Source of the DNA: Synergistes sp.
Lineage (GTDB): Bacteria; Synergistota; Synergistia; Synergistales; Synergistaceae
DNA length: 34,278 bases
Reading direction: 5' to 3'
Assembly (NCBI GenBank): GCA_030531745.1
Contig: JAUNMU010000007.1
Location: forward strand, 1-34,278
Part shown: piece after piece, positions 5,771 through 25,587 of the stretch
How positions within the stretch are numbered: the first letter of the stretch is position 1
Layout: the number at the start of each line of letters is the position of its first letter
The notes under the pieces: model-generated
The model's database searches: none
What the model was told of the DNA's origin: nothing
The model's input: only the letters and a program-made list of their open reading frames with translations
Position numbers and translations under genes: made by a program

Positions 5771-5798
5771 CTAAGTTGTCGTACACATCTTGTATAAT
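5771..5798 (+). promoter_or_regulatory. Regulon promoter copy A (CTAAGTTGTCG element)
   Basis: CTAAGTTGTCGTAC is followed by TATAAT, with 22 bp from the first C to the -10. There is no TTGACA-like -35; the conserved element covers that position. A GC-rich ACGCG follows the -10. Three further copies with identical geometry occur in the window. It points toward the gene starting at 6086, about 280 bases downstream. Confidence 0.75.
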
Positions 5799-6085: not shown

Positions 6086-7417
6086 ATGAAAAATAAAGAC
6101 TTACTTTTGGTATCATTTGTAATGGGCATTTTATATTTAGTGTTGTTAGTTTTGGCAGTCTCCGGAAGTATTGCCATGTTTGCGGTTTTGGCTGTTATAT
6201 TTGGCATTTTCCTTATACCTCATATATTCTTCACCGTCTTGGCTTTGATTTTCACTCTCGTCGGATGGGGAATGAAAGCAAGATGGGGAGCATTTACTGC
6301 CGGCGTACTGTACATATTTTCTATTGTTTGCGTGTCAATCACCTTTCAGTTTTGGGCAATTCCGTTTATGGCAGCTACGATGACACTGTGTTTTGCGGGT
6401 TACGCCTTAATGCCGAGAGACATTCAAGCACAGGCGTCATGCTATGTAACAGATAACAACGGAGTGCAAAAGATAAAATGCACAAAATGTGCCTCTCTCT
6501 GCGACACGAATATGACATTCTGCGCATCGTGCGGAAGTAAAATAGGTGTGTATGCGCAGCACTCATCAAATACAGCAATAATCGTAACGGTATGTGCCGT
6601 TCTCCTCTTTGTATTGGGGTGCGGATGCGTAGGCTATGAATTATATTCGGCAATGAGTAAGGCTGTCCCCGATTCGCAATCACAACAAGATGCACAATAT
6701 TATGAGTACGAAAAAAATAATTCATCGGGCAACAATACATCGGCACAAGATGACAATTCCGGCTATACGGAGGATAACAGCGGAGGTGACGATGGAATAA
6801 ATCCGGAAGAATTACTACATGGAACAACTTATCAGTATGAGTTAAGTTCTCGTATGGAAGAGGCGCTTGACCGGGAAGTTAAATTGGTAGATACAGCCAT
6901 GAATACTCTTGAATTGGTTGACGGATATAAGGAACTGTATGACGCATGGGATAGGGAGTTGAATATTGTTTACAAAAAGGTTATGGGTGTTCTTCCTGCC
7001 GACAGACAAAAACAGCTTAAGAAAGAAGAAGAGCAGTGGGTCAGCACCAAAAATAAAAATGCAAAAGCTGCCGCAAATGAATTTGAAGGCGGAAGTTACG
7101 CAGATGTAGCCTTTATCAAATCAAAACTTGAGAGTACAAAAGAACGTACATTTGAACTTGCAAGTATGTACGACAACTATACAGATCACTCCTCGCAGCC
7201 GCAAGTTGCAGAAAACGGTATAAAATGCATGATCAACGGTACAAATGTGAACATGAGAGAATATCCCGATACAAATGCAAATGTAGTGTATAAATTTAAG
7301 GGGTATGAAACTGTTTACGCAGATCAAAAAACAAATGCAGAACCGAATAAGTATCCTTGGTACAGAATAACTTACGGTAATTGTACAGGTTGGGTTTACG
7401 GCCAATTTATAAAATAG
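6086..7417 (+). CDS. Membrane protein with zinc ribbon, LprI-like domain and C-terminal SH3b domain
   Basis: This 443-residue multi-domain protein is of unknown exact role. Residues 5-108 form about four transmembrane segments. A zinc ribbon follows (C132, C135, C146, C149), then another transmembrane helix at 163-185. An acidic, Asn/Ser-rich linker (195-240) leads to a helical segment at about 255-365 that resembles the LprI/DUF1311 family (LDREVKLVDTAMNTL, YDAWDRELN, LKKEEEQWV). A bacterial SH3 domain (383-443: GTNVNMREYPDTNANVV ... WVYGQFIK) ends it. SH3b domains often bind peptidoglycan, and LprI proteins are linked to lysozyme inhibition, so an envelope role is likely. The ribbon should be cytoplasmic and the C-terminal half outside. 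It is preceded by regulon promoter copy A and followed 45 bases later by an L,D-transpeptidase, which suggests co-transcription. Confidence 0.8.
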   Translation: MKNKDLLLVSFVMGILYLVLLVLAVSGSIAMFAVLAVIFGIFLIPHIFFTVLALIFTLVGWGMKARWGAFTAGVLYIFSIVCVSITFQFWAIPFMAATMTLCFAGYALMPRDIQAQASCYVTDNNGVQKIKCTKCASLCDTNMTFCASCGSKIGVYAQHSSNTAIIVTVCAVLLFVLGCGCVGYELYSAMSKAVPDSQSQQDAQYYEYEKNNSSGNNTSAQDDNSGYTEDNSGGDDGINPEELLHGTTYQYELSSRMEEALDREVKLVDTAMNTLELVDGYKELYDAWDRELNIVYKKVMGVLPADRQKQLKKEEEQWVSTKNKNAKAAANEFEGGSYADVAFIKSKLESTKERTFELASMYDNYTDHSSQPQVAENGIKCMINGTNVNMREYPDTNANVVYKFKGYETVYADQKTNAEPNKYPWYRITYGNCTGWVYGQFIK

Positions 7418-7462
7418 AGGTGAACAACTTTATTGTAATGTGAAAGCTATGAGGGAATAAAG

Positions 7463-8176
7463 ATGTACGGAGACAGACATATTGATCGTAAAAAAAAGAG
7501 GAAGAGCGGATATATTTTACTGCTTCTCTGTTTTGCTGTCGTTGCGTTCGCGGCGGGAGTTTTTATAAAGCTGAACTCAACCGGAACACAAAACGCACAG
7601 GAGCATGAACAGGCAAGGAATACCGTATCCAATGGACAGAGTAATACCGATGCAGACGTTTCCGGTGATTTGTCGGAACTTGAAACTCTCACAGAAGGTG
7701 ATTCAAATGACACGGACACAGTAAAGTCTGTAAAAACAGAAGAAGTCCCTGCTGTTTCCGGTGAGGATAGTGGTACATGGATAAAGATCGTTAAAAAAGA
7801 ACACCGACTTTACGTTGTAGAAGGAAAAGATAAAATCATCACATCATACCCTGTCTCTGTCGGCAAAAATGTCGGTCAAAAACAGAAAAGCGGTGACTGT
7901 AGGACACCGGAAGGCAAATTTTCAGTGCAGGCAATACAATCGGCAAAAGGCTGGTCTCATGATTTCAGGGACGGGAAAGGCGTAATTCCCAATGCATACG
8001 GTCCATGGTTCATAAGGCTTAAAACGGGTTGGAGCGGTATAGGCATCCACGGCACACATGATCCGAAGTCAATAGGTAAAAATGTGACCGAAGGGTGTAT
8101 TCGTCTGCACAATGAAGATTTGCAGGAACTGAAAGAAAAATTCATAAAACGTGAGATGACGGTTATAATTCAGTGA
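7463..8176 (+). CDS. L,D-transpeptidase (YkuD domain)
   Basis: A 237-residue membrane-anchored YkuD-family enzyme. This family forms 3-3 cross-links in peptidoglycan or attaches proteins to it. A basic N-terminus (RKKKRKSG) precedes one transmembrane helix (about 17-35). A Ser/Thr/Glu-rich linker follows to about residue 105, then the catalytic domain with the hallmark GIHGTHDPKSIG (H196) and EGCIRLHNEDL (catalytic C212). The start has GAGGG 7 bases upstream. It directly follows the zinc-ribbon/LprI/SH3 gene and probably shares its transcript, linking the CTAAG promoter to cell-wall work. It ends before a perfect inverted repeat. The enzyme class is secure; the precise substrate is not. Confidence 0.92.
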   Translation: MYGDRHIDRKKKRKSGYILLLLCFAVVAFAAGVFIKLNSTGTQNAQEHEQARNTVSNGQSNTDADVSGDLSELETLTEGDSNDTDTVKSVKTEEVPAVSGEDSGTWIKIVKKEHRLYVVEGKDKIITSYPVSVGKNVGQKQKSGDCRTPEGKFSVQAIQSAKGWSHDFRDGKGVIPNAYGPWFIRLKTGWSGIGIHGTHDPKSIGKNVTEGCIRLHNEDLQELKEKFIKREMTVIIQ

Positions 8177-10095: not shown

Positions 10096-10755
10096 TCAGC
10101 AAGTGAAACGAAATACTTCCGCTCCGTTGGCAAGAGATATTTCACTGCCGTTTGCAAGCATTACAGACGCGCCTCTTGACATTTTCTGTCCATTGACCCA
10201 TGTACCGTTACTTGAGAGATCGCAAATCATATACCGATCGTTATTTGCGTCAATCACACAGTGGACTCTGCTGATCGCGCAAGAACTTTCCGGAAACATT
10301 ATCTGACACTTCAAACTGTCTCTGCCCAATGTAATCGGTGTTGACGACAATCGTATTTCCTGTCCGCTGTAGTAACCATACACACCGACAAGCGCAGCAC
10401 ACCTTGACGGCGCAGCGACAGGAAACTGCAAGCCCGCATTGCCGCGGACAGGGAGTGCTTTTTGTTGTTTTTTGCGGGCATGACTGACATATTCGTCATC
10501 ATTGTCGTCGTCATCATCATCATACTCGTCATCGTAATCTTCGTAATCATCATCTTCGTTATTTTTGTCTTTCCGTCTGCCCAATATGAACATAAACGGA
10601 AGCGGAATGATCAGTGCCGCTCCGAATATACACATAAATATCTCTTTGCTGCCGAAATCAGATGCCATTGCCGGAGTCTGAAGTCCCACCAAAAGCATGA
10701 ATGTGACCATAAATATCATCTTTACAATTCTTGCGGAATAAAAATACTTTTTCAT
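10096..10755 (-). CDS. Membrane-anchored FHA-domain protein with acidic linker
   Basis: A 219-residue protein starting at ATG 10755, with GGAG upstream. A signal-like hydrophobic N-terminus ends near PAMASD (about residue 32). A second hydrophobic segment (about 41-60) is followed by RRKDK, giving a cytoplasmic C-terminal side. Residues about 64-90 are almost entirely Asp, Glu and Tyr, encoded by GAT/GAC/GAA repeats. The FHA domain (about 125-219) carries the phosphothreonine-binding signature: LGRDS, ISRVHC and LSSNGTWVNG. FHA domains read phosphothreonine, so it is a likely partner of the kinase in the locus. It is the last gene of the locus and is separated from the phosphatase gene by 143 bases with no clear promoter. 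Confidence 0.88.
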   Translation of the reverse strand: MKKYFYSARIVKMIFMVTFMLLVGLQTPAMASDFGSKEIFMCIFGAALIIPLPFMFILGRRKDKNNEDDDYEDYDDEYDDDDDDNDDEYVSHARKKQQKALPVRGNAGLQFPVAAPSRCAALVGVYGYYSGQEIRLSSTPITLGRDSLKCQIMFPESSCAISRVHCVIDANNDRYMICDLSSNGTWVNGQKMSRGASVMLANGSEISLANGAEVFRFTC

Positions 10756-10898
10756 AGTAATGTAAACTCCTCTCAAGATAGATCAAGTTTAAGAAATATA
10801 CTTTTTAACATTCAACGACAAAGAATAACATAGCCGCCATATAACAAACAGCTGCACGAAAATTTACCGCTTGCCCGATAGATTTCCCGAAAAATTTA

Positions 10899-12098
10899 TC
10901 ACTTTTGTTTGCTGTGGTATTCTTCTATGAGTGTCTCTTCATCTTCACCGTCGCCGCTGATAATTTTAGTTTCATCTATACTTTGCATATCGCCGGATTT
11001 ATCGGAAGATCGTTCGTAAATATCATGAGAATACGGCACTGCGTTCACATCCTTATCTGCCGATGTCTCTTCTGTGTATGTGTTTTCTTTTTCGCTTTCT
11101 TGAACATTCCACGTCATACAGCAGGATATAACACCGCTAAGTACTGCAAATATACAAAGCATAACAATAATCATAGTCGGTATTTTGCGTTTTCGCACAA
11201 TTATCTTTGGACTCTTGCGCTCACTGTTTTTTAAGCTCTCTTCCGGCATTGGAGGTATTTCTTCGGTGCGCGGCTCATTCTGCCCGTTTATTTTCACTGT
11301 TATCGCAATGGCCGTCACATTATCCTGGTGAGAATTTTCCTTTGAAAGCGTTATGCTTATCAGTTTCTCCGTCCACTTTTGCGGATCTCCCTCGTAGCTT
11401 TCGGCAATCTCTTCCTCAGAAAGAGTCTTATATAAGCCATCTGAGCAAAGAAGTATCGTATCTTCGGAACGCAGCTGCAAATTCCCTTCGTCTATCTCAG
11501 TAAGATTTTCTATCCCGATAAAGCTTGTCAATGCCTCCCTTTGCGGGTGGTGCAGAGCATCTTCTTCCGTCAAAAATCCTTTTTCCACAGCTTTCTGCAA
11601 CTTGTTCGCGTATATATGTTCTTTGTTAAGCTGCTTCAAACGTCCGTTTCTGTAACGATATATATGACTGTCACCTACAGACACCCAGTAAAGCATATCG
11701 CATTTGACCGCAACTGCTACGAGCGTAGAACCGCAGTTCCCAGGTTCATTGATGCTCTCGGCTAAATGCCACACCGCATTATTTGCGATGTGCGTGCTTT
11801 TCAGAAGAATTTTGTCTGCCGTCTCTTCTTCTGCGGAAATAGTCTTTTGCGCTTCAAGAAAACTGCGGACAGCAGTACCGGAGGCTTCGCGTCCGCCGAC
11901 AAGTCCCCCCATTCCGTCACAGACTATTCCGGTGTAACCGACAATATCTATAAGTTCCTTATCGGCAAAATCCGAAAAACCGAACGAGTCCTGTTGTTCC
12001 GAACGTCTGCCGATATTCTGACAATTACCGACACTTACCGAAATCTTCATTTTTTCTTCGGCAGTTTCTCTCTGCTTCTTCAAGTTATTCTTTATCAT
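10899..12098 (-). CDS. PP2C-type Ser/Thr protein phosphatase with C-terminal membrane anchor
   Basis: A 399-residue metal-dependent phosphatase that should reverse the locus kinase. The PP2C metal ligands are visible: D37 in RRSEQQDSFG, D61 in CDGMGG, D220 in LLCSDGLY and D259/N260 in QDNVTAI, along with VGDSHIYRYRNG. The catalytic part covers about residues 18-270 and is cytoplasmic. A Pro/Glu/Lys-rich linker leads to a transmembrane helix (307-327). The acidic, Ser/Thr-rich tail is predicted outside the cytoplasm. Start ATG 12098 is chosen because AGGGG lies 6 bases upstream; the open frame reaches 12116. Kinase/PP2C pairs commonly occur together, and the membrane tether on both partners here fits a local signalling complex. 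Confidence 0.92.
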   Translation of the reverse strand: MIKNNLKKQRETAEEKMKISVSVGNCQNIGRRSEQQDSFGFSDFADKELIDIVGYTGIVCDGMGGLVGGREASGTAVRSFLEAQKTISAEEETADKILLKSTHIANNAVWHLAESINEPGNCGSTLVAVAVKCDMLYWVSVGDSHIYRYRNGRLKQLNKEHIYANKLQKAVEKGFLTEEDALHHPQREALTSFIGIENLTEIDEGNLQLRSEDTILLCSDGLYKTLSEEEIAESYEGDPQKWTEKLISITLSKENSHQDNVTAIAITVKINGQNEPRTEEIPPMPEESLKNSERKSPKIIVRKRKIPTMIIVMLCIFAVLSGVISCCMTWNVQESEKENTYTEETSADKDVNAVPYSHDIYERSSDKSGDMQSIDETKIISGDGEDEETLIEEYHSKQK

Positions 12099-12128
12099 GA
12101 AAGCCCCTTTTCTCAATGCGCTTCGCTT

Positions 12129-12743
12129 CTAATCCCCGCCAAAGCCAAAATCCATACTCAGCAATGTTTTGACAAATCTCTTGTACTGAAGGATAAGCGA
12201 CATGAACATCAATATAACGCCCGCTGCTCCGGACAATAACAAAGCGCTTTCGGCTGAAAATATATTTACCATACACAAACCGGCAAGCACCAAATAGGCA
12301 AGCGGAACATATTTCTTCATTCCCATTGTTGCAACGGCGTATGCTGCAACGGCGGCTGTCACGGTAGCTCCGCCGTCAAGCAGATGTTTCATATCTCCGA
12401 ATATGATATTGAATACCATTCCAAAACCCCAGATATTCACGAGCGTACACAGAATTGAGATGGGGTTGTCAATAAATTCAGCGTCAACAAATCCCCTTCT
12501 GCAAAGAAATATGAACATAAGTATCGCGAGAAACGCCCCCAGTATGCCTGGACTCTGAATTTCCAACTCCGTTCCGAAGAAGAAGTTCAAAACACCATAA
12601 CTCCACCGCGGCATCCACGCACCGTGTTTAGGTACTTTGTAGAGCATCAAACACACATTTGCAATAATTCCGGCGAATAGTCCGATTATCTGTTTTGTCC
12701 CCTGATCCAAACGACCAAAAAGAAAACTCTCTTTCCTTGACAT
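12129..12743 (-). CDS. Polytopic membrane protein of unknown function
   Basis: A 204-residue protein with five or six hydrophobic segments (around residues 18-40, 65-85, 97-118, 128-142, 148-163 and 170-190) and a short Gly/Asp-rich C-terminus (DFGFGGD). I do not recognise a family. ATG 12743 has AGGTG 6 bases upstream; an in-frame GTG at 12752 abuts the previous stop. It is packed between the DUF4230-like gene and the phosphatase, with very short gaps, so it is very likely co-transcribed and a membrane component of the FHA/kinase system. Confidence 0.8.
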   Translation of the reverse strand: MSRKESFLFGRLDQGTKQIIGLFAGIIANVCLMLYKVPKHGAWMPRWSYGVLNFFFGTELEIQSPGILGAFLAILMFIFLCRRGFVDAEFIDNPISILCTLVNIWGFGMVFNIIFGDMKHLLDGGATVTAAVAAYAVATMGMKKYVPLAYLVLAGLCMVNIFSAESALLLSGAAGVILMFMSLILQYKRFVKTLLSMDFGFGGD

Positions 12744-12752
12744 AGCAGACAC

Positions 12753-13445
12753 CTACCGCACCACGACGCTTACGTCAATATTACTTTTGCCCGCGGCGTT
12801 CAACAGACTTTCGGCAAGACCTTTAACTTTGTTTCTTGCTAATTCATTTGCTCTGTTTTGTTCACCGGACTGCCATTTTGTGAACAATTCGTTTTTGTAA
12901 TGTTCATCGCATCTTTTTTGAATCTGTTGGAACTCCTCCGCCGACAATACAGACCTAAGCCATCCCGTTTGTTCGCCGACTTTTTCAAGATTGGATTTCT
13001 GAATTGTCAGTTCGCAGTTGGGAATTGCTATCTGTATTCCCCTATCGCCTGTCTTCTGAACGCCGACATTCTCTAAATCCACTTCATATTCGTATGTCAT
13101 TGTATAATTCAAGATCAATTCCTTACCAAAAATTTTATTTCGGATTCCCTTAAACCATGAATTGGGATCTTCAACAACATCTTTATAATTCAAGACTTCA
13201 CTTAGCTGTTTGCCCTCTTCAATTTCCAAACGCATCTTTTCTTTCAGCGAATCTTCTATCATCTTTGCCGTTTTGAAATCAATTTCGGGTGCATTGCCAA
13301 CCTGAAAGACACTCTCTTCTTCATCGGCTCCGGATGCCTCGTCAACATTCAATCCGCCAAACATAGTTAAATAACCTACTCCGCCCACTAAAAGCACGAA
13401 TATGTAGTACATCATAAATATTTTTTTCAGTTTTCTGCGTGACAT
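12753..13445 (-). CDS. Membrane-anchored DUF4230-like protein
   Basis: A 230-residue protein with a basic N-terminus (MSRRKLKKIF), a single transmembrane helix (about 10-33) and an extracytoplasmic domain. The pattern of a beta-rich segment (YTMTYEYEVDLENVGV ... IQIAIPNCEL) followed by a long helix with Glu/Lys/Arg (CDEHYKNELFTKW ... RANELARNKVKGLAESLL) and a terminal strand (IDVSVVV) resembles DUF4230 proteins. That family assignment is tentative. Start ATG 13445 is preceded by GGGGG at about 8 bases; the frame opens at 13460. It lies 28 bases after the secreted Sel1 gene and directly abuts the next membrane gene. Confidence 0.7.
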   Translation of the reverse strand: MSRRKLKKIFMMYYIFVLLVGGVGYLTMFGGLNVDEASGADEEESVFQVGNAPEIDFKTAKMIEDSLKEKMRLEIEEGKQLSEVLNYKDVVEDPNSWFKGIRNKIFGKELILNYTMTYEYEVDLENVGVQKTGDRGIQIAIPNCELTIQKSNLEKVGEQTGWLRSVLSAEEFQQIQKRCDEHYKNELFTKWQSGEQNRANELARNKVKGLAESLLNAAGKSNIDVSVVVR

Positions 13446-13473
13446 TGTTCTTGCCCCCACACCTTCAAATAAT

Positions 13474-14454
13474 TTATCTGTTTTTCAGTATCGTGCCGAT
13501 CAATCCGATAAAAGCGGCTGCATTCTGCGCATCCTGCCGCTGCTTCTGCTGTTCATACTGCGCCACGTACTGCTGCGCCTCTTCATCTCCAAGTTGGGAG
13601 GCTTTCTTCATATATGCGTATGCTTTCTCATTGCTTTTACCGACGCCATAACCGTTTGAATAACAATAAGCCATATTTTTAACCGCTATTATGTCGTCTC
13701 TTTCTGCCGCCTCTTTAAGATACTTCACGGCAACATCATAGTTTTGACTTGTACCCGTTCCCCTCAGATACATTTCTCCCAACAGGGATGCCGCTCGTAT
13801 ATTTCCCATTTCGGCGGATTTTCTGAGCCATAACATAGCATTGTCGTAATCCACAGTCGTGCCTATTCCATTGTAATAACAGACCCCAAGCAGATATTGT
13901 GCATGGGCAAGTTTTGTCCCCCTTGTCCCGCGTTCGGCAACAACACGCAGATAGGGCAATGATTTATTGAGATTGCTCATTTGATCGTCAGCCAGATCCA
14001 TCGCGATTTCATAAGCGTCCTCAGCGGATAATCCTATATAGTCTTTCACGATCATATCGTAGCAGCTTTTTATCCTTTGACTTTTGCTGACAAGTTTTTT
14101 CCCCTGCGATGCCATACTTTCGTAGACAACATTTCCGGCATCATCGGTCAGCCAAGTTCTGCAAATTTCAAAGAAGTTGTCAACATCTCTGTGAATTGCC
14201 ACATCGTACAAAACTCTCTTTGCTCTGCCCACCTTATAATATTCACCGAATTGTTTTTCCTCTTCCGGTGTCTGTGCAATAGCCATATAGGTAAATGTTA
14301 TTTCACTTCCGTTTTCCTGCCACTTCACAGACGATTTGTCAAATTTGCATGAGGCATCAACTGTACACCAGTCATCTTCTCCCGCAAATGCGGGCACTGC
14401 AACCCAAAGACAAACAACAAATGCAAATACGACCTTTGATAACATTTTCTTCAT
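13474..14454 (-). CDS. Secreted Sel1-repeat protein
   Basis: A 326-residue protein with a clear signal peptide (MKKMLSKVVFAFVVCLWVAV, cleavage near AFAG). A unique N-terminal domain (about 25-180) contains paired Cys residues. Three Sel1/TPR-like repeats follow (about 190-300), recognisable from AxYLLGxCYYNGIGT, AASLLGEMYLRGTGTSQNY and AVKNMAYCYSNGYGV. A Gln-rich coiled C-terminus ends with a short hydrophobic stretch (AAAFIGLIGTIL). Sel1 repeats mediate protein-protein contacts. AGGAGG sits just before ATG 14454. It follows the kinase gene, which carries similar Sel1 repeats outside the membrane, so the two may form a shared scaffold. Confidence 0.87.
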   Translation of the reverse strand: MKKMLSKVVFAFVVCLWVAVPAFAGEDDWCTVDASCKFDKSSVKWQENGSEITFTYMAIAQTPEEEKQFGEYYKVGRAKRVLYDVAIHRDVDNFFEICRTWLTDDAGNVVYESMASQGKKLVSKSQRIKSCYDMIVKDYIGLSAEDAYEIAMDLADDQMSNLNKSLPYLRVVAERGTRGTKLAHAQYLLGVCYYNGIGTTVDYDNAMLWLRKSAEMGNIRAASLLGEMYLRGTGTSQNYDVAVKYLKEAAERDDIIAVKNMAYCYSNGYGVGKSNEKAYAYMKKASQLGDEEAQQYVAQYEQQKQRQDAQNAAAFIGLIGTILKNR

Positions 14455-14484
14455 GAAAATTCCTCCTGTATAGTATATTTATTT

Positions 14485-16536
14485 TTACAATCCCGGCGGC
14501 AGCAGATTTTGTTTCTTCGGCTGCGTCGGAACATTCGCAGGTTTTTTGGGCGGTGTCGTTTTTTTCACTGCCGGCTTTTTTACCTCAGGAACTTTGACCT
14601 TAGGAGCCTTGACTTTTGGCTTTGCCGCAGGTTTCGGAGGCTGTTTCACCGTCGGTATTGTGGGCTTTGTCTGCTGTGTAGCATTAGCATTTATACCATT
14701 CAAAGCATTTTGTGCATCTTCATACCCCTGTTCTGCCGCCATACGAAGCCATTTGACCGCTTCGTTTTTGTTATACGGCACACCTTTTCCCATAAGATAC
14801 GCATATCCAACACCGAATTGTGCTTCCGCAACACCTTGTTTGCCGGCTTTTTTCCAATATTCAACAGCTTTTGAAGGATCCGCTTTTACACCATGCCCCT
14901 GAACATACAAACTTCCCATTTTTGTCTGCGCCGATGCATTGCCTTTATCCGCAGCTTCTTTATAAAGCGATACCGCCTTATTCAAATCGTGAGCAACACC
15001 GTAACCGTTTTCATACATATAGGCAAGATTACTCATCGCTATCGGAATTTTTTGTTCTGCCGCCTTTTCAAGCCATTCCGCAGCCTTTTCATAATCCTGC
15101 GGTACTCCGTTTCCATGAAAATACAATGCGCCAAGGTCGCACTGCGCGGGGGCGAAGCCCTGTTCCGCAGACTTTCTGAACCATTCCGAGGCTGCGATCA
15201 TATCCAGAGGCACCCCCTTGCCCTGCTGAAATTTCTGCCCTATGTAATATTGAGCCTGTCTATCGCCCTCCTGTGCTTTTGCCATAAGATTATCAAATTC
15301 GGGGTTTGCTCCTCCGGTAGACGCTGTGTATGTACTATTGCTTCCCGATGATTTTGTAAAATAAAATATACCTCCACCGACACATGCGATAAAAAACACT
15401 GCCGCCGCTATAAGTGCGTATGGAGGCTGTTTGCTTTTTGCTCCATTTCCGTGATGTTCGGATTCTTTTACGCTTTTTTCGTTCCTATTTGTCTGATTTT
15501 TATTTACGGGCTTAGCGATTGGCGGCATCTCTGCCTTAAAGTCCGCTGACGACAGTGCATTCTTAAAATCGCCCATTGACTGAAAACGCTGTGATGCGGA
15601 GAGCGACAGCGCACGCATAATGGCTCTTTCCGCGTAATCGGGCAACACCGCACCTTTGGCTGAGGGTAACTCTATCGGGTCTTCATCGCCAAGCCTGTCA
15701 ACCGCGTCCGGCGGCAGTTCACCCGTAATGCTTCTGTATAATGTAGCCCCCATGCTGTAGACATCGCTCCACGGGCCGAGCTGACCTCTTGTCTGATACT
15801 GTTCGGCAGGGCTGTAGCCTTTTTTCAGCACTACGGAGTGACTTTTCTGATTTGCAAGAGCAAGAGCGTTCTTTGCCGCTCCAAAATCAAGCAAACGAAC
15901 CTGACCGTCATTGGTTATAAATACGTTATCCGGACTTATATCTCTGTGTATCAGATTGGCACCGTGAACGATGTCAAGCGCATCCATTATGGGGAAAAGA
16001 AGCCTTGTTGCCTCTTCAAATGATATTTTCCCATTGTGCGCTTTAAGATATTGCAGCATAGTACCGCCTTCAAGATAACTCATAACCATATAGGCAGTTC
16101 TGTTATATTCAAAGAAATCTTTTACGGAGACAATATTGGGATTCTGGTCAAAACGTCCGAGAATACGCGCCTCGTCAAGAAATTTTGTAAGCCCCTCCAT
16201 ATAGTCATGCTTACTGTCTTCGCTTGCGACCATAACTGTTTTGTCGCCCGTGTTTCTGACGGCAAGACCAGAAGGATAGTATTCTTTTATTGCGGTCTTT
16301 GTGCCAAGTTTCATATCAAGCGCAAGGTATGTTATTCCAAAACCACCCTGACCGAGAGTTCTGCCTATTAAATAACGCCCGTTAAGAATTGTGCCTATGC
16401 TTAATTTGTTAAAATCTTCTCCCTGCGGTTTTTCGGCATCATAACCGCACACCGGGCAAGGATTTCTGCCTGATATTTGCGCAAAACATGCATGGCAAAA
16501 ATCGTTTTGACTTACATTTCCGTTCTGTTCAGCCAT
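14485..16536 (-). CDS. Hanks-type Ser/Thr protein kinase with zinc ribbon and extracytoplasmic Sel1 repeats
   Basis: A 683-residue transmembrane kinase. An N-terminal zinc ribbon (C14, C17, C27, C30) precedes the kinase domain (about 52-330). That domain has the Gly-rich loop GQGGFG (62-67), catalytic Lys84, HRD (197-199) within HRDISPDN, and DFG (217-219). Ser replaces the usual Lys of HRDxKxxN, a variant I believe occurs in a group of bacterial kinases. A transmembrane helix (373-393) leads to six Sel1 repeats (about 424-628) outside the membrane. A Lys/Pro-rich tail (about 635-683) suggests cell-wall contact. Many bacterial Hanks kinases carry PASTA repeats in this position; Sel1 repeats point to a protein ligand instead. 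It is the probable writer for the locus FHA domains. Confidence 0.94.
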   Translation of the reverse strand: MAEQNGNVSQNDFCHACFAQISGRNPCPVCGYDAEKPQGEDFNKLSIGTILNGRYLIGRTLGQGGFGITYLALDMKLGTKTAIKEYYPSGLAVRNTGDKTVMVASEDSKHDYMEGLTKFLDEARILGRFDQNPNIVSVKDFFEYNRTAYMVMSYLEGGTMLQYLKAHNGKISFEEATRLLFPIMDALDIVHGANLIHRDISPDNVFITNDGQVRLLDFGAAKNALALANQKSHSVVLKKGYSPAEQYQTRGQLGPWSDVYSMGATLYRSITGELPPDAVDRLGDEDPIELPSAKGAVLPDYAERAIMRALSLSASQRFQSMGDFKNALSSADFKAEMPPIAKPVNKNQTNRNEKSVKESEHHGNGAKSKQPPYALIAAAVFFIACVGGGIFYFTKSSGSNSTYTASTGGANPEFDNLMAKAQEGDRQAQYYIGQKFQQGKGVPLDMIAASEWFRKSAEQGFAPAQCDLGALYFHGNGVPQDYEKAAEWLEKAAEQKIPIAMSNLAYMYENGYGVAHDLNKAVSLYKEAADKGNASAQTKMGSLYVQGHGVKADPSKAVEYWKKAGKQGVAEAQFGVGYAYLMGKGVPYNKNEAVKWLRMAAEQGYEDAQNALNGINANATQQTKPTIPTVKQPPKPAAKPKVKAPKVKVPEVKKPAVKKTTPPKKPANVPTQPKKQNLLPPGL

Positions 16537-16578
16537 TTTTTCCGTTTCGCTCCTTTACAGCGTTCGGCTCACCGCAAT

Positions 16579-17883
16579 TTACCTTGCGTGACCTCTGAAA
16601 ACATAAATTTCTCTATCGTGAGCAAAGCTTATATTATCTCCGACATTCAAAACGTATGGTGACATTTTGGGCAATGCTCTTCCGTTTACGGACGTTCCAA
16701 CGCTTGATGTGTCGGTAATCACATATTTTTTGATGTTCCTGTCATAATTGATCTGACAGTGGGCACGGCTTACAAGCGGATAATTATCCGGATATTTTAT
16801 TGAGCAGTTCGCAGCTCTTCCTATAGAAATATTGCCGCTGATTTTGAATCTGTGTCCCTGATATATTCCGCGCACACATTCCAAAGAACAATAATCCGTT
16901 CTGAGCCTCTTTTTCCTTTCGCCGCTAACGTAAAAATGACAGAACAACGCCGCAATACCGCCGATAAAACAGGCGCCGATCAATATTATCGGCAACATGG
17001 AGCCCGTATCTGATGAATCGGAATTATTATTTACGCCCTCTTGAGGTGTAACTTTTTGTTCGGGCATCTTCTGCGGAATCTCTTCCCTGCTTTCACTTTT
17101 GTCATCGTCTTTTTTCCCACGATCGTCATTTTCTTTCGGTGGGTATTTATCATCATCATCTTCTTCCGGAGCGGCGGAAGATATTATTCCTTGGCTTGAA
17201 AGTATATCAACGACATGGTCTATCCTGACGGCATATCCCACGCCCTGAACGGCTTCACCATTGCCATCGCTTACAATAGTGAGTGAATTAACCCCTATCA
17301 CCTTACCGCTGTCGTTATACAGAGGGCCGCCGGAATTTCCATGATTTATTGCTGCGTCTGTCTGAATATAATGCACGCCTCCGTTTGAAATTGTTTTGCT
17401 CACAACGCCCTTAGTTACCGTTATTGCGTCTGCACCGCTCATTGCATTATCGTCATTGTCGGCAGCCCCGGGGTAACCCATTGCATATACATCTTCCCCC
17501 TGTGATATTTCATTTATCTCCGCTATCCGGACAGGCGGCAGTCTGAAACCCGTTATAGGTTTCAAAACTGCAATGTCAAGTTCAAGGTCTGAGCAAATTA
17601 CTTCACACGGAATTTCATTTCTGCGTCCATCCAACAAATAGACATCCCAACCGAGATAAAAATCTTCCACCACATGCAGATTGGTCACAAAATAGCCACC
17701 GTCACCGACTGCAAAAGCCGTCCCCGAAGAGCCTCCCACTCCTCTTTGAGCGCATATCACACGAATAACGGATTTTTTCATTCTCTCTATGGGTGCGGCA
17801 AACGCAACGGTACATACATTAAATATACATACCACAGATAATATAAAAATATATATTTTTGTTCTCATTCCGACAGTGGACAT
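16579..17883 (-). CDS. Trypsin-like serine protease with transmembrane helix and cytoplasmic FHA domain
   Basis: A 434-residue fusion. A signal peptide (to about residue 29, AFAA) leads to a chymotrypsin-fold protease resembling the HtrA/Deg family without a PDZ domain. The triad is H70 (TNLHVVED), D103 (LELDIAVLK) and S184 (GNSGGP). A very acidic linker (240-295) precedes a transmembrane helix (297-318) and a basic stop-transfer. A C-terminal FHA domain (about 335-430) carries IGR (354-356), SRAH (372-375) and SSVGTSVNG. The protease should therefore act outside while phosphothreonine binding happens inside. ATG 17883 has GAGG 7 bases upstream; M6 is an alternative. It lies 42 bases before the kinase gene, on the same transcript. 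Confidence 0.93.
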   Translation of the reverse strand: MSTVGMRTKIYIFILSVVCIFNVCTVAFAAPIERMKKSVIRVICAQRGVGGSSGTAFAVGDGGYFVTNLHVVEDFYLGWDVYLLDGRRNEIPCEVICSDLELDIAVLKPITGFRLPPVRIAEINEISQGEDVYAMGYPGAADNDDNAMSGADAITVTKGVVSKTISNGGVHYIQTDAAINHGNSGGPLYNDSGKVIGVNSLTIVSDGNGEAVQGVGYAVRIDHVVDILSSQGIISSAAPEEDDDDKYPPKENDDRGKKDDDKSESREEIPQKMPEQKVTPQEGVNNNSDSSDTGSMLPIILIGACFIGGIAALFCHFYVSGERKKRLRTDYCSLECVRGIYQGHRFKISGNISIGRAANCSIKYPDNYPLVSRAHCQINYDRNIKKYVITDTSSVGTSVNGRALPKMSPYVLNVGDNISFAHDREIYVFRGHAR

Positions 17884-17962
17884 TTCAAAACCTCATAAAG
17901 ACGTATGACTTTTTAACGCAATTCGTTATATCGGACAACCTTATCGCGATGTCCGTGACACC

Positions 17963-18754
17963 TTATCGCACTTCAAATTCATTTTCGGATTCGCCCAAAC
18001 GGAAGTGCATAAATACAGTCATTCTTGTCGGAGAGGAAATCCGCGTCCATGCACCATTCATCTCAACAAATGTGCCGTTGGTTGAGCCGAGGTCTTCAAC
18101 GATCACACCGTCGTTGCCGTCTGCATAAACATGGGCATGTCTGCGTGAAATGCCGCTGTCCTGTATAACGATGCTGCAGCAGTTCGGATCGCGTCCGATG
18201 ACAACAGGTTCCGCCCCGACAGATATATTCTGCCCCGCATACGTTCCGCTCATGCCGCAGATCTGCATTTCACGCTGCGCAAAAGCTTGCGGTGCCGAAG
18301 TAAATGCTATTGTCTCCGATGCCGGAAGAGCAATGGGAGGTTCAGCAGCCGGAGTAACCGGTACCGCATTTTCCCGCGGCGTTACGCTGACACCTCCGCT
18401 TTTTGATGTATTTACCCTAAATGCGATCTCATTTGCAATTTTCATATTTGCCTGATTTGTAATAGTTCCGAATCTGAATAAATCTATAAGCGAACCTATT
18501 CCCAAAAAACCCAATGTGAATAAATACAGGACACCCAGACCTACCTGTCCGAGGTAAAATCTGTGTACCCCAAATCCACCGAGAAATAAGTCCAACAACA
18601 ATGTCACCATCGGCGTTTTTCTGTTTGCGTTATACGCTATTGAAAAATCGGCTATCTCTTCTTCACTAAAATCCTTAACAAGGTTGCCGATTAACACAAT
18701 TTCTTCTCCGCTGACATTCGGAAAATATCTCATGAGTTCAGTATTGCTTGCCAT
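17963..18754 (-). CDS. TM2-domain and FHA-domain protein
   Basis: A 263-residue protein. Residues 1-45 form a helical N-terminal segment. A TM2 domain (about 46-95) contains two hydrophobic helices around GGFGVHRFYLGQ, the diagnostic motif. A proline/alanine-rich linker leads to an FHA domain (about 165-263) with IGRDPNC, SRRHAHV and LGSTNGTFV. Both the N-terminal and FHA parts are predicted cytoplasmic. Start ATG 18754 has GGAG upstream. It is flanked by gaps of about 80-107 bases, the longest within the locus, the upstream one carrying a long inverted repeat. Confidence 0.9.
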   Translation of the reverse strand: MASNTELMRYFPNVSGEEIVLIGNLVKDFSEEEIADFSIAYNANRKTPMVTLLLDLFLGGFGVHRFYLGQVGLGVLYLFTLGFLGIGSLIDLFRFGTITNQANMKIANEIAFRVNTSKSGGVSVTPRENAVPVTPAAEPPIALPASETIAFTSAPQAFAQREMQICGMSGTYAGQNISVGAEPVVIGRDPNCCSIVIQDSGISRRHAHVYADGNDGVIVEDLGSTNGTFVEMNGAWTRISSPTRMTVFMHFRLGESENEFEVR

Positions 18755-18811
18755 AAATCATCTTCTCCAATCCAACTCAAATTCTGTATCATCGCAGTTT
18801 CACAATAATGA

Positions 18812-18854
18812 ATGCGTTGGCGCATTTTCACTTGAAGCGAATGCGCCAATGCAT
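18812..18854 (-). repeat. 15-bp inverted repeat between two FHA genes
   Basis: ATGCGTTGGCGCATT (18812-18826) and AATGCGCCAATGCAT (18840-18854) pair around a 13-base loop, with one mismatch in the minus-strand RNA. The repeat lies just after the VWA-FHA stop and 58 bases before the TM2-FHA start. With no U-tract, it looks more like an mRNA stabiliser, processing site or protein-binding site than a terminator. Confidence 0.6.
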
Positions 18855-18861
18855 CGCCAAA

Positions 18862-20511
18862 CTATCTCACACCGATAATCTTTATCTTGAACTCTGTCTT
18901 GCCCAACGTCAAACGATCACCGTCGTTGAGAGTATATACACCTCTTATAGGCACTCCGTTCACATAAGTTCCGTTCGTGGAGTTAAGATCCGAAACTGAC
19001 AGTTTGCCGTTTGCGAATATCAATTCGCAGTGTCTTGCAGAAATCGTTGCATCTCCGGGAATGCCAAAGTCAGCGCCCTTACCGCCCTTTCTGCCGAGGA
19101 CGAGACGATCGCAGACAGAGATGCGATAAGTATCCGCGGAGCCTCTGCTGCCTGTAACAGAAAGCTCAACGTCAATGGCGGGACCGGTTTTAACAGGCTC
19201 CGCAGCCATATTTCCGCGAATGTTTACGGTTGCCGGATCGTTATATATTTTCATTGTGGATCCGTGGTCTGCTGCGGCTGTGAAACTTTGCGTGACCGAA
19301 GCCTCATCATCACTCTGAGCTTCACGATCTTCGCCTTTCTTTGCTCTGTGTTTTTTGGCCTTACCGTTTTTGAAAATCAGCACCGCGGCTCCGGCTATGA
19401 TCACAGCTATAACGGCAATTATTCCGAACAGCACACGTTTATCCTTAACGATGCCGGAAACGCCGCCTTCTTCTGCGCCCTCTCCGTGACCTTTTTCGCT
19501 TTCTGCCTTATCGGACGAAGCACTGTCTTCGCTTACTGTATAGGTCTCTGTCTTTATCGGTTTCAACAAACGAACATCTATACCTTCCGAAAGGTCAACC
19601 GTCCCATCCGAATAGACAAGGCTTGCTCTTACTTTCCGACCATCGGCTACCGCATCCGACACATTAAATTCAGCGACCGATATTTTTTCCTCTTCACTGA
19701 ATATCCGCTTAAATACATCGGCAAAAGACGCTGCTTTCAAATCATAGAACGTACCGCCGGATCGTCTTGCGTACTCCCCTACCGAATGAGCTTCCTTGTC
19801 TCTCAGTGAAGATTTCTTCTTAGCATCATCGTAGAACAATGTGTAAATCGGAACGTGTGTTTCGTCAATCGCATCTCTGACCTCGGCTGCGGTCGCGCTT
19901 GACGCGGAATCATCCATTCCATCGCTTGCGAGTATTACCATGCGCCTCTTGGGAAGCGATGTGTTTTTAATTCCGGCAAGTTTAAGCGCAGATATAACTC
20001 CCGAATTCAAAGAGGTCTGAGAATCCCTTGCCTTTAACTGCTGCACGGTGTAAAGCAGTGTCTTTGTCTCGCTTGTGTAATCTTGACAAACATTGACCTG
20101 CTCTCCCACGGAGACCACGGCGACCTTATCTTTGGGTTTCAGCTGCTTAATGACCACACACATTGCATTTTTAAGCTCGGCAAAACGTCTTTGACTCACA
20201 GACGAAGAAACATCAACCAAGAATACGATCGCAATTCCCTCGTCTTTACGTGAAAACGGCCTTACATTCTCCGGCTGCATTGACTTGTCGGAAATATTCA
20301 GTACAACATTTCCGGATGGGGTCACAATATTTCCGTTTGCGTCCTTTACTTCAAAATACGCTGTCGCAGATGGGAAGTCTGCTAAAAACTGACGCAATTT
20401 CAAAGTATAAGAACCGGCCTCTGCAGTGTCTGTCGGAGAGAGCAAAAGAAAACAGCTGAGCATCACCGCAAAAAAGCTTACGGTTATCCTTCTTTTTTCT
20501 GCTTTTCCCAC
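18862..20511 (-). CDS. VWA-domain protein with transmembrane helix and cytoplasmic FHA domain
   Basis: A 549-residue fusion. Starting at GTG 20511 (GGAGG 7 bases upstream) it has a basic N-terminus and signal peptide ending near AEAG. A von Willebrand A domain (about 90-275) has the metal-ion-dependent adhesion site DVSSS (100-104) and ASDG (D197). A strand-rich segment and an acidic Ser/Glu linker follow, then a transmembrane helix (about 361-380) and a basic stretch. A C-terminal FHA domain (about 455-545) has LGRKGG, ISARHC and LNSTNGTYVNG. The VWA part should be outside the cytoplasm and the FHA part inside. The frame is open to 20529, but that start is TTG without spacing for a ribosome site. 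It overlaps the previous FHA gene by 28 bases, implying translational coupling. Confidence 0.92.
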   Translation of the reverse strand: MGKAEKRRITVSFFAVMLSCFLLLSPTDTAEAGSYTLKLRQFLADFPSATAYFEVKDANGNIVTPSGNVVLNISDKSMQPENVRPFSRKDEGIAIVFLVDVSSSVSQRRFAELKNAMCVVIKQLKPKDKVAVVSVGEQVNVCQDYTSETKTLLYTVQQLKARDSQTSLNSGVISALKLAGIKNTSLPKRRMVILASDGMDDSASSATAAEVRDAIDETHVPIYTLFYDDAKKKSSLRDKEAHSVGEYARRSGGTFYDLKAASFADVFKRIFSEEEKISVAEFNVSDAVADGRKVRASLVYSDGTVDLSEGIDVRLLKPIKTETYTVSEDSASSDKAESEKGHGEGAEEGGVSGIVKDKRVLFGIIAVIAVIIAGAAVLIFKNGKAKKHRAKKGEDREAQSDDEASVTQSFTAAADHGSTMKIYNDPATVNIRGNMAAEPVKTGPAIDVELSVTGSRGSADTYRISVCDRLVLGRKGGKGADFGIPGDATISARHCELIFANGKLSVSDLNSTNGTYVNGVPIRGVYTLNDGDRLTLGKTEFKIKIIGVR

Positions 20512-21077
20512 TGATATTCCTCCCCACAAAACGGAACGAACTTAAATTTACTCGCTCCAAGTTCAATAGTGTCATAAGGATTTAAATTCTCAGACGCTAT
20601 AACTTCTTCATCATTCAAATAGACAAGACCCCTGCTAAGCCCCGCTTGAATCCGGAATATGTTCCGTTTGGGATCGTAGACTATGAATGCATGGTCATTG
20701 CGCGAAATACTTTCGTCACCTGAAATGCTTATGTCCATTGCATCAGAACGTCCCACAGAATTTTTCTCCGAACGTATTCTGAAGTCGCGCCCCCTGTCCG
20801 GACCATCAACACAGACTAGCCAGCCAACCACAGGGTCTATGCCGGATTTTTTCTTGACAACGGCTATCGTGTGCCCCTCATCCACAGACTTTTCACTTGC
20901 CTTTTGAGATGGGGGCGATATTCTCATCGTAGCTCCGTCCGAAGACGCCATCTGCGTTGCGGCCGAATTAAAGCGTTGTGTGCTTTCGGATGCGTCAGAT
21001 GCGACCGAACACCATGGACACGTCTGATTTCTGCTCGGGTCGTAAAAATGTCCGTTAGGGCAACGTGTTATTGCCAT
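20484..21077 (-). CDS. Zinc-ribbon and FHA-domain protein
   Basis: A 197-residue soluble protein. An N-terminal zinc-ribbon-like motif (CPNGHFYDPSRNQTCPWC; Cys6, Cys20 and Cys23 with a likely fourth ligand His10) resembles ribbons often found at the start of bacterial FHA proteins. A Ser/Thr-rich linker (25-75) contains TQRF and TMRI, plausible phosphothreonine sites. The FHA domain covers about 82-190, with VGRSDAMD, ISRNDHAF and the strand VYLNDEEV. The histidine of the usual SxxH is in NDHAF, which is slightly diverged. It lies 13 bases after the first gene of the locus and has a GAGGTG site. No membrane segment is seen, so it is a cytoplasmic adaptor candidate. Confidence 0.9.
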   Translation of the reverse strand: MAITRCPNGHFYDPSRNQTCPWCSVASDASESTQRFNSAATQMASSDGATMRISPPSQKASEKSVDEGHTIAVVKKKSGIDPVVGWLVCVDGPDRGRDFRIRSEKNSVGRSDAMDISISGDESISRNDHAFIVYDPKRNIFRIQAGLSRGLVYLNDEEVIASENLNPYDTIELGASKFKFVPFCGEEYQWEKQKKEG

Positions 21078-21090
21078 AACCGCACACCTC

Positions 21091-22170
21091 TTAGAGATTT
21101 ACGTTGAATGTAGGCATTGTAAGCGCCGGTGCTTTTTCCACAGAGACTCCGGCAAGAGTTCCGGCTGACTGCATAAATCCGCCGAATGAATCGTTGAATG
21201 CCACCATCTGCTGTGCTATAAGATTAAAGAACGTCTGGAGAACATTGAGTACATTAGCGTCAAACGGCACCGAAGGCGCAGAGCCGCCGCCAAGTCCCAG
21301 CGCACCGCCCAAACCTCCGAGCGCGCCGCCGCTCTTGCCTGATGTAGCGGACTGTATGACTTTAATAATCTCATTAAAGACAGTCGCAAGTTCCTGCATA
21401 CCTGACTGCATATCGTTCTGAATACTGCCGCCGTCCGCAATAACTTCATCTTTCAGGATAGCTTTATCTTCGGCAGAGACATCGGCGGGAGAGACTGTTT
21501 TCATCTCTTCTTCGGCAGTTACAACGGCACTGTTTGCATTTTCGTGGACTTTTTTGTCAAGATCGCTGAGTTTTGAATCCTCAAGTGGCTTTACACTCAA
21601 AGCGGAAACTGCGCTCGCCCATGTGCTATATGTTGCTTCGGCTGTTTTAATGGCCTGAGCATCATTTGTGGTGGCCTTGTAGATCTTGATCTGTTCATCT
21701 GTCAAGCGTCTGAGTTCCTTAAGCGATGCTTTGGCATTTTCAATTGACTTGCCGAAATTTTGCTCTGCGGAAGCCGTGTCGTTTTTCTCTTTGGCCTGTG
21801 CCTCGTAAAGTGCCTTCTGTTCGCTGAGAACACCGTTAATGGTCTTGTAGTGATTCATCTTCTCCTTGTCAATATTCGCAAGAGATGCAAGCGCTTTCTG
21901 AGGATCCATGGTCTCCTTTGATGCTTTCTTTGCCGGCTGCTTTGCTGTCTGTTTTGCTTTGCTAAGTTTTGCTATCTTTGTCTTCTGAGCAACCAATGCT
22001 CCTCTGTCGGCATTGCCCGCGCCGCGCGACTGTGCGATCCATGTATTGATCACAACCGCGCTCTTTCTTCCGCCGCCCGTAATATCAATCATACCTATCG
22101 CTATCGTTGCAAAAACAAACACTGTCAATACTGCCGTAAGTAAAACTCCAAGATTTCTTCTTTTCATCAT
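21091..22170 (-). CDS. Single-pass membrane protein with Lys/Ala-rich coiled-coil region, function unknown
   Basis: The first gene of the FHA/kinase locus encodes 359 residues from ATG 22170 (ATG 22167 is equally possible). A short basic N-terminus precedes one transmembrane helix (about 6-26). The extracytoplasmic part is Lys/Ala-rich (about 55-90), then strongly helical with coiled-coil character (about 90-250). A Gly/Leu low-complexity stretch (GGALGGLGGALGLGGG) is followed by a hydrophobic helical end. I recognise no family. The open frame extends to 22320, but codons 1-50 lie across the promoter copy B region. The 5' leader is about 135 bases and has a hairpin between an AGGAGG and the start codon. 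As the promoter-proximal gene it may be the abundant structural part of the system. Confidence 0.78.
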   Translation of the reverse strand: MMKRRNLGVLLTAVLTVFVFATIAIGMIDITGGGRKSAVVINTWIAQSRGAGNADRGALVAQKTKIAKLSKAKQTAKQPAKKASKETMDPQKALASLANIDKEKMNHYKTINGVLSEQKALYEAQAKEKNDTASAEQNFGKSIENAKASLKELRRLTDEQIKIYKATTNDAQAIKTAEATYSTWASAVSALSVKPLEDSKLSDLDKKVHENANSAVVTAEEEMKTVSPADVSAEDKAILKDEVIADGGSIQNDMQSGMQELATVFNEIIKVIQSATSGKSGGALGGLGGALGLGGGSAPSVPFDANVLNVLQTFFNLIAQQMVAFNDSFGGFMQSAGTLAGVSVEKAPALTMPTFNVNL

Positions 22171-22179
22171 CTGCTCAGT

Positions 22180-22311: not shown

Positions 22312-22339
22312 ATTATACAAAACAAGTGCGACAACTTAG
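22312..22339 (-). promoter_or_regulatory. Regulon promoter copy B (drives the FHA/kinase locus)
   Basis: On the minus strand CTAAGTTGTCGCAC is followed, 22 bp from its first base, by TATAAT and then TCGCGCG. It shares AACGTCTAAGTTG with copy D. A start site near 22305 gives a leader of about 135 bases for the first locus gene. No canonical -35 is present. It is back-to-back with copy C, 137 bp away. Confidence 0.78.
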
Positions 22340-22476: not shown

Positions 22477-22504
22477 CTAAGTTGTCGTGCATATAGTGTA
22501 AAAT
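22477..22504 (+). promoter_or_regulatory. Regulon promoter copy C (drives the regulator gene)
   Basis: CTAAGTTGTCGTGC precedes TAAAAT by the same 22-bp register and is followed by GCGCGG. The regulator ATG is 40 bases beyond the -10. Sharing the element with the divergent locus suggests common control, including autoregulation. Confidence 0.75.
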
Positions 22505-22544: not shown

Positions 22545-23018
22545 ATGTCAATGGATTTAGGGTCGGTAAGATTGGCACGACTTAATAAACTTATGACCGT
22601 GTTTCTCGCTTATCAATACATTCCGCGAAATGATCTTATGGATATGGTCAACATAGTTTCCGTAAGGATGCTTCAACGCGATATTTCGTACTTGAAAGAA
22701 GAATTCAATGTCAATATAGAATATGATTTCAAACACCGTGCATATAAATGCACTAATCCGGGACACTTTGTTTTAAATCTTAATTTTGACATATTTGAAA
22801 AAGCGGCGCTGCACATAGCCTTTGATCTTTACGAAAAGGTTATGTCGGATACGGCATGCAACATTCAGTCTGCCGCACTCAAGTTGAAAAGATTTATCGG
22901 AGAGCGCGAAGAAGTTATACCGGACGATTCAAATCCTCATTCGCCGGTATCAAACCACATCCAAAGCTATAAAAAAATCCTTAAGTTTTTGGATAAGATG
23001 GACAATAAAAGCAAGTAA
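22545..23018 (+). CDS. DeoR/WYL-type winged helix-turn-helix regulator lacking a WYL domain
   Basis: A 157-residue protein with an N-terminal winged helix (about residues 5-65). The recognition helix region is VSVRMLQRDISYLKEEFNV, the S-x-R-x-L-Q-R-D-x-x-x-L pattern of the HTH_11/WYL group. The remaining 90 residues are helical (FEKAALHIAFDLYEKV) with no WYL ligand-binding domain, so the protein is about half the length of a typical WYL regulator. ATG 22545 has AGGGG 8 bases upstream; GTG 22536 is a weaker option. It is transcribed divergently from the FHA/kinase locus and has the same promoter element. I infer that it controls that element; nothing in the sequence proves the direction (activator or repressor). 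Confidence 0.82.
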   Translation: MSMDLGSVRLARLNKLMTVFLAYQYIPRNDLMDMVNIVSVRMLQRDISYLKEEFNVNIEYDFKHRAYKCTNPGHFVLNLNFDIFEKAALHIAFDLYEKVMSDTACNIQSAALKLKRFIGEREEVIPDDSNPHSPVSNHIQSYKKILKFLDKMDNKSK

Positions 23019-23060: not shown

Positions 23061-23096
23061 AAAAAATCCCCCGTCCTTTCCGACAGGGGATTTTTT
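23061..23096. terminator. Bidirectional intrinsic terminator
   Basis: AAAAAATCCCC pairs with GGGGATTTTTT, with an inner GTC/GAC pairing and a short loop. A-tract and T-tract flank the stem, so it can end transcription from both the regulator gene (plus) and the zinc-ribbon gene (minus). Confidence 0.9.
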
Positions 23097-23123
23097 GCTG
23101 AACTCATCATTGTTTGATTGAGG

Positions 23124-25175: not shown

Positions 25176-25203
25176 CTAAGTTGACGCACCTCTGTTGTAA
25201 AAT
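25176..25203 (+). promoter_or_regulatory. Regulon promoter copy D (before the broken Cys-motif gene)
   Basis: CTAAGTTGACGCAC is followed by TAAAAT with the same 22-bp register, and then GTCGGC. The upstream flank AACGT matches copy B. It lies 57 bases before the small secreted gene start at 25260. Confidence 0.72.
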
Positions 25204-25259
25204 GTCGGCAAATGCAATGCTTGTGGCTTTGCATAAAAACGTTGACGGAGGTTACGATT

Positions 25260-25518
25260 ATGAGGAATTGGTTTAAGCTGTTTACAGCAATGTTGTGTAC
25301 GTTGAGTGTAGCGTTTATTTTTTGAGACAGCACAGGCGCTTGCAAAATGGGAGATGCATCTTCTGTGGGTCACAGGCATACGGAAAGGATTGCCCCCACA
25401 GTCCCTACGCAAATCATGCACATGAACATAATGACGATTACAGGCATTGTATTTATTGCAGCAGCACAAAAAAAACACACAATGCCCAAACTCAGCCAAC
25501 AAGCAACACTATTATTGA
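25260..25518 (+). pseudogene. Frameshifted small secreted protein with two CxxC...CPxS repeats
   Basis: ATG 25260 has GGAGG upstream and opens a signal-like sequence (MRNWFKLFTAMLCTLSVAF), then hits a stop after 21 codons. Three single-base shifts, each in a homopolymer (T6 at 25318-25323, A4 at 25344-25347, A8 at 25468-25475), restore a coherent protein of about 85 residues. It has a signal peptide ending TAQALA, a first motif GRCIFCGSQAYGKDCPHSPY with following His residues, a second motif HCIYCSST ... CPNSANKQH, and a stop at 25516-25518, just before the terminator. The frame with the first motif otherwise runs through the terminator to 25591, which is implausible. It is either a decaying gene or a set of homopolymer sequencing errors. 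The Cys/His spacing suggests metal binding. Confidence 0.65.
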
Positions 25519-25526
25519 TGCAATGA

Positions 25527-25558
25527 AAAAGCGCGGCACTTTTCGGTGCCGCGCTTTT
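25527..25558. terminator. Bidirectional intrinsic terminator
   Basis: AAAAGCGCGGCAC and GTGCCGCGCTTTT form a perfect 13-bp stem with loop TTTTCG. A- and T-rich arms allow it to serve both the plus-strand Cys-motif gene and the convergent hypD gene, whose stop is at 25588. Confidence 0.92.
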
Positions 25559-25587
25559 GTTACTCACGAACAGATCGTTACGATAAG

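Follow-up and report, generated by a model that had tools for sequence, protein, structure and literature searches.

A short WYL-less protein of Synergistes as candidate regulator of neighbouring promoters with a PafBC-like element

The window analyzed here, a stretch of 34,278 nt of Synergistes sp. DNA (contig JAUNMU010000007.1), carries at 22545-23018 (+) an intact open reading frame for a protein of 157 aa, hereafter the regulator. The gene is closed by an intrinsic terminator-like hairpin with a T-run at 23061-23097 (+), identified from sequence and folding (-17.9 kcal/mol). In Pfam searches the protein had a single match, to HTH_11, and this was below threshold (E=0.005); neither the WYL domain (PF13280) nor the sugar-phosphate-binding C-terminal domain of DeoR proteins was found in it. 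There was no match in NCBIfam, and a phmmer search of the PDB with the single sequence gave nothing useful. Among 151 related genomes the regulator aligned with the N-terminal 80-125 residues of proteins of ~330-380 aa (E-values from 1e-19 to 1e-9 against the N-termini of full-length WYL proteins); those of them that were tested carry WYL domains. These full-length regulators of Synergistota are ~20-43% identical to it over the helix-turn-helix (HTH) and helical linker, and some are preceded by the promoter element described below, but they differ in having retained WYL. Since the homology ends in the linker leading into WYL, at the point where that domain would begin, the term 'WYL-less short regulator' is appropriate.

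An AlphaFold2 model (mean pLDDT 84) places a winged HTH at residues 7-71, linker helices at residues 83-99 and 104-118 and a C-terminal helix at residues 134-156. In a fold search with this model the WYL proteins BrxR and CapW were among the best bacterial regulator matches (probability 0.99-1.00), with generic winged-helix proteins ranking above them. The preliminary description of this DNA, made from sequence, had seen a DeoR/WYL winged helix with no ligand domain. Pfam and the homolog alignments bear out the lack of WYL, and the HTH does belong to the WYL family; the attribution to DeoR is imprecise, as the winged helix appears to be of the PafC-like/HTH_11 kind seen in WYL regulators and not that of DeoR proper.

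The gene is preceded by a promoter of the form CTAAGTTGTCG-N11-TAAAAT at 22477-22504 (+), with the start codon ~40 nt downstream. The same short form, CTAAGTTGTCG-N11-TAwAAT, occurs with a TATAAT hexamer at 22312-22339 (-), reading into an operon of FHA and kinase genes, and at 5771-5798 (+), upstream of genes for an LprI/SH3 protein and a YkuD protein; a variant, CTAAGTTGACG-N11-TAAAAT, lies at 25176-25203 (+) before a short transcription unit. All four were located by site alignment and genome scan. Thus the regulator does carry the same element in its own promoter and does share a divergent intergenic region with the FHA/kinase locus, as the preliminary description had it. Alignment of the sites gave an extended promoter of 28 bp, CTAAGTTGWCGYRC-N3-T-N2-TGTAWAAT. 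In the 1.61-Mb genome, the one genome by which the genus is represented, this extended element has exactly four copies, all in the window's contig, and no further match was found even when three mismatches were allowed; the reversed control had no match in the genome, and 150 relatives yielded isolated matches with three mismatches only. The exact CTAAGTTGTCG occurs three times in the window and three times in the whole genome. With two mismatches the short 11-mer is as frequent in the window as expected by chance; therefore the signal lies in the extended element and its position.

We considered whether TTGTCG within the element could be a -35 box and rejected this reading, because 11 nt instead of 17 separate the hexamer from the -10. 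The -35 position itself is occupied by TCTAAG or GCTAAG at the four promoters, where for spacings of 15-19 TTGACA is matched at 2/6 positions at best; at all sites examined, relatives included, a -35 box was absent (best match ≤3/6). The -10, on the other hand, is of ordinary sigma-70 type.

The units behind the four elements are the regulator gene, the FHA/kinase/phosphatase operon, the LprI/SH3 and YkuD gene pair and a unit of ~350 nt. By its Pfam domains the putative target operon at 10096-22173 (-) comprises 11 genes, encoding a coiled membrane protein (21094-22173), FHA, VWA-FHA, TM2-FHA and trypsin-FHA proteins, a Ser/Thr kinase with Sel1 repeats (14485-16536), a Sel1 protein, a DUF4230 protein, a membrane protein, a PP2C phosphatase and a further FHA protein. 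The putative targets at 6086-8176 (+) encode a zinc-ribbon/LprI/SH3_3 membrane protein (443 aa) and a protein with a YkuD L,D-transpeptidase domain (237 aa). The fourth putative target, at 25204-25561 (+), has a Shine-Dalgarno sequence and, from 25260, a signal-peptide-like ORF that continues into a frame-shifted Cys/His-rich repeat; the unit ends in a strong hairpin with a T-run at 25526-25561. At 25260-25550 (+) the signal-peptide-like ORF MRNWFKLFTAMLCTLSVAFIF reaches the Cys/His-rich repeat (CIFCGSQAYGKDCPHSP...) only via frame shifts; two other genomes (G168 and G142) have intact relatives with three repeats, the one in G168 adjoining ileS, as does the copy in the window. Given the association of its family with the element in related genomes, described below, the regulator may activate a local group of genes for the cell surface and for signalling by phosphorylation.

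The nearest homolog of the regulator is found in a Synergistes MAG (G034); it has 162 aa and likewise no WYL domain. Both proteins have the recognition helix RMLQRDISYL, and the homolog has TTAAGTTGTCG-N11-TAAGAT 59 bp before its start codon. A scan of the named genomes with a two-sequence alignment returned this MAG only. To look at the family at large we used the upstream regions of 67 non-redundant family genes from Synergistota. The pattern TTGTC-N12-TANNNT, i.e. with 11 nt after the hexamer, occurred on the coding strand of 8 of the 67 regions; for 20 other spacings the count was 0-2 each, and for the opposite strand it was 1. When the upstream half-site YTAWSN was included (YTAWSNTGTC-N12-TANNNT) the count was again 8/67, against a mean of 0.003 in dinucleotide shuffles (maximum 1 in 300); this shuffle figure is optimistic because the half-site was refined on the data in which it was counted, and the spacing test is the cleaner one. 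With the window and the MAG left out, 6 of 65 regions retained the half-site motif. Over ~370 kb of family loci, spacing 11 accounted for 16 distinct sites, and no site had spacing 10 or 12. The remaining 59 of the 67 family members have no clear site within 300 bp.

A degenerate pattern searched in 188 genomes gave ~80 matches, near chance overall; ~9 of them, some from one genus and so not independent, lay within ~450 bp upstream of family genes and on the same strand. Genome-wide, the degenerate pattern is meaningful only beside family genes. The genes behind the sites encode three types of protein: full-length WYL proteins, proteins of HTH and linker (in the window, in the MAG and, with 176 aa, in genome G057) and HTH-only proteins of ~80 aa. 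The targets differ among relatives.

Several loci of these relatives deserve mention in their own right. In genus g24 (L146, L147, L148, L152) HTH-only relatives of ~80 aa head operons for DUF1232-like, two radical SAM, PqqD-like and LRAT/NlpC-like proteins; a second site, CTAAGGTGTCG-N11-TA, lies after the HTH-only gene and points towards an operon, a small ORF rich in Gly/Ala is a possible RiPP precursor, and a full-length WYL relative lies 4-5 kb further on. Another locus (L204 4751-11001, genome G013) combines the element, an HTH-only protein of 81 aa, a full WYL protein and two long ORFs, the first of which looks like a dynamin-like GTPase; this locus is possibly one for defence. Tandem HTH-only relatives of 81 and 102-103 aa in genus g44 (L157, L158) are reminiscent of a PafB/PafC-like pair cut down to its HTHs. 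A perfect site in genome G007 (L195 2745-2772), ~290 bp 5' of a Sel1-repeat gene, is on a contig other than that of the family regulator and is not significant alone.

Taken from the sequence comparisons, the regulator is the best candidate for the protein acting at the CTAAG promoters. This agrees with the proposal of the preliminary description that it is their master regulator: an element of the same spacing precedes homologs from several Synergistota families, the one close homolog among them, and genomes with close matches to the motif were not found to lack the regulator. It is very unlikely, in our estimate, that the element is read by some other factor, an alternative sigma or a second WYL protein, with the regulator gene merely one of the targets. 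That gene is itself preceded by the element, and elsewhere in the window's genome there is one other WYL protein (C35), unrelated and of a different subfamily. Yet the -10 is ordinary, an alternative sigma should have sites beyond the window's contig, and the element tracks the HTH family of the regulator across genera, including the two genomes (G034 and G057) in which no WYL protein was detected. Still less credible, indeed highly improbable, is that the regulator is what remains of a decaying full-length WYL regulator and no longer has a function. It is known from a single genome and is shorter than most of its relatives; against this, its ORF is intact and has its own promoter and terminator, and other genera have WYL-less members of HTH and linker with the element.

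The geometry of the element invites comparison with PafBC, the mycobacterial activator of the DNA-damage response, which acts at RecA-NDp promoters. The mycobacterial consensus is tTGTCRgtg-8nt-TannnT (PMC5656591). PafBC slots in between DNA and sigma domain 4, with the PafB HTH reading the -26 motif and the PafC HTH binding sigma domain 4 (PMC11804915). In both systems the promoter core is a non-palindromic TTGTCR with 11 nt to TAnnnT and no -35 box, and the regulator probably has a PafC-like HTH with linker. The protein evidence for this likeness comes from the family: HTH_PafC (PF19187) was matched in Pfam by 4 of 53 members (best E-value 3.1e-6), though not by the regulator itself, and the family profile gave a weak match to PafBC (6sj9) over the HTH and linker (E=0.016). 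The differences are also clear. PafBC is a heterodimer with WYL domains that bind ssDNA, whereas the regulator has neither WYL nor WCX domain, and no second subunit, nor any second gene of its family, was found in its genome. It comes from another phylum, its putative targets are few and local and are not DNA repair genes, and its element has a CTAAG half-site upstream while the GTG of tTGTCRgtg is not conserved. Because defining features are lacking, the regulator is neither strictly a WYL-domain protein nor a PafBC; by analogy it is most likely a minimal member of the WYL family functioning like PafBC.

Other WYL systems offer partial parallels. SiwR, a WYL activator, requires the -26 region of its target promoter (PMC10693628); this local regulator of M. 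smegmatis differs in having WYL, in binding ssDNA and in its site, a palindrome with a GGA triplet at -26. The Caulobacter activator DriD, of the same family, sits at a fixed distance from the -10 where promoters have a poor -35 box (PMC12340889), but as a homodimer on a 20-bp pseudo-palindrome around -35 and with an ssDNA-gated WYL. BrxR and CapW have the fold of winged HTH and linker in common with the regulator; they differ in that WYL is present and in being repressors of defence operons. Their operators are palindromic. A search of a limited body of literature found no paper on WYL-less members of the family.

The kinship with BrxR and CapW, which rank among the closest solved folds, and the frequency of negative autoregulation would fit a regulator that is itself a repressor, covering -35 to -24 and so blocking polymerase at its own promoter and the other three. 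A repressor site, however, needs neither a fixed distance to the -10 nor the loss of the -35 box, whereas here the spacing does not vary at all between genera and no -35 box is present; this combination favours an activator, and we consider repression unlikely. More generally, a -35/-26 element fixed relative to the -10 points to an activator. Points against activation include the gating of PafBC and SiwR by ssDNA at a domain, WYL, that the regulator lacks; activation by a protein of HTH and linker would also be without a precedent known to us.

On balance we regard it as fairly probable that the regulator is an autoregulated activator of the PafBC-like 'sigma adaptation' type without the WYL sensor, binding its own promoter and three neighbouring ones. 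For this protein we infer DNA binding, activation, contact with sigma, the sign of autoregulation and the input as follows. It would have kept the part facing DNA and polymerase (the PafC-like winged HTH and the helical linker) and lost the ligand-binding WYL/WCX part. It would bind the -35/-26 element YTAWSTTGTC at its own and the three neighbouring promoters, where the housekeeping RNA polymerase could then start despite the absent -35 box, as with PafBC. Lacking a sensor, the regulator is probably controlled through its own level, via positive autoregulation, and possibly also through a partner protein at the C-terminal helix (residues 134-156).

As to the input, the preliminary description had suggested phosphorylation by the kinase of the locus or a protein partner. 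A feedback loop in which the Ser/Thr kinase (14485-16536) phosphorylates the regulator, or an FHA protein binds it, would suit the common divergent promoter region and the presence of kinase, PP2C phosphatase and FHA proteins together in the presumed target operon. The comparative data speak against it. In the G034 genome (89% complete), which encodes the WYL-less homolog and carries the element, the kinase found no match. Conversely, in genus g44, of another family, the operon FHA - VWA-FHA - TM2/FHA - PP2C - Ser/Thr kinase is conserved (L089, L090, L091), and neither regulator nor element was found with these orthologous operons. Switching by the locus therefore seems quite unlikely to us, and control of the regulator by its own level or by a partner at the C-terminal helix is more likely than kinase input. 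An obligate WYL partner for the family was also considered and rejected: no WYL protein was found in G034 (89% complete) or in G057, so that such a partner is not required in general, and the one in the window's genome is unrelated.

With more reserve, as a tentative proposal, the WYL-less series of Synergistota, of HTH and linker or of HTH only (~80 aa), may act, in minimal form and without a ligand, as sigma adaptors at -26 promoters of the PafBC type.

Sigma adaptation has its model in PafBC, which is regarded as an actinobacterial device gated by ssDNA. If this proposal for the WYL-less series is true, the mechanism extends outside Actinobacteria and activation can do without the WYL sensor. 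Naturally WYL-less proteins of another phylum that use this promoter geometry would reveal which part of the protein does the work, and would offer a minimal activator for structural study. The promoter code is easily searched and could be used for finding WYL regulons, and the FHA/kinase envelope-signalling operon gains a testable candidate regulator.
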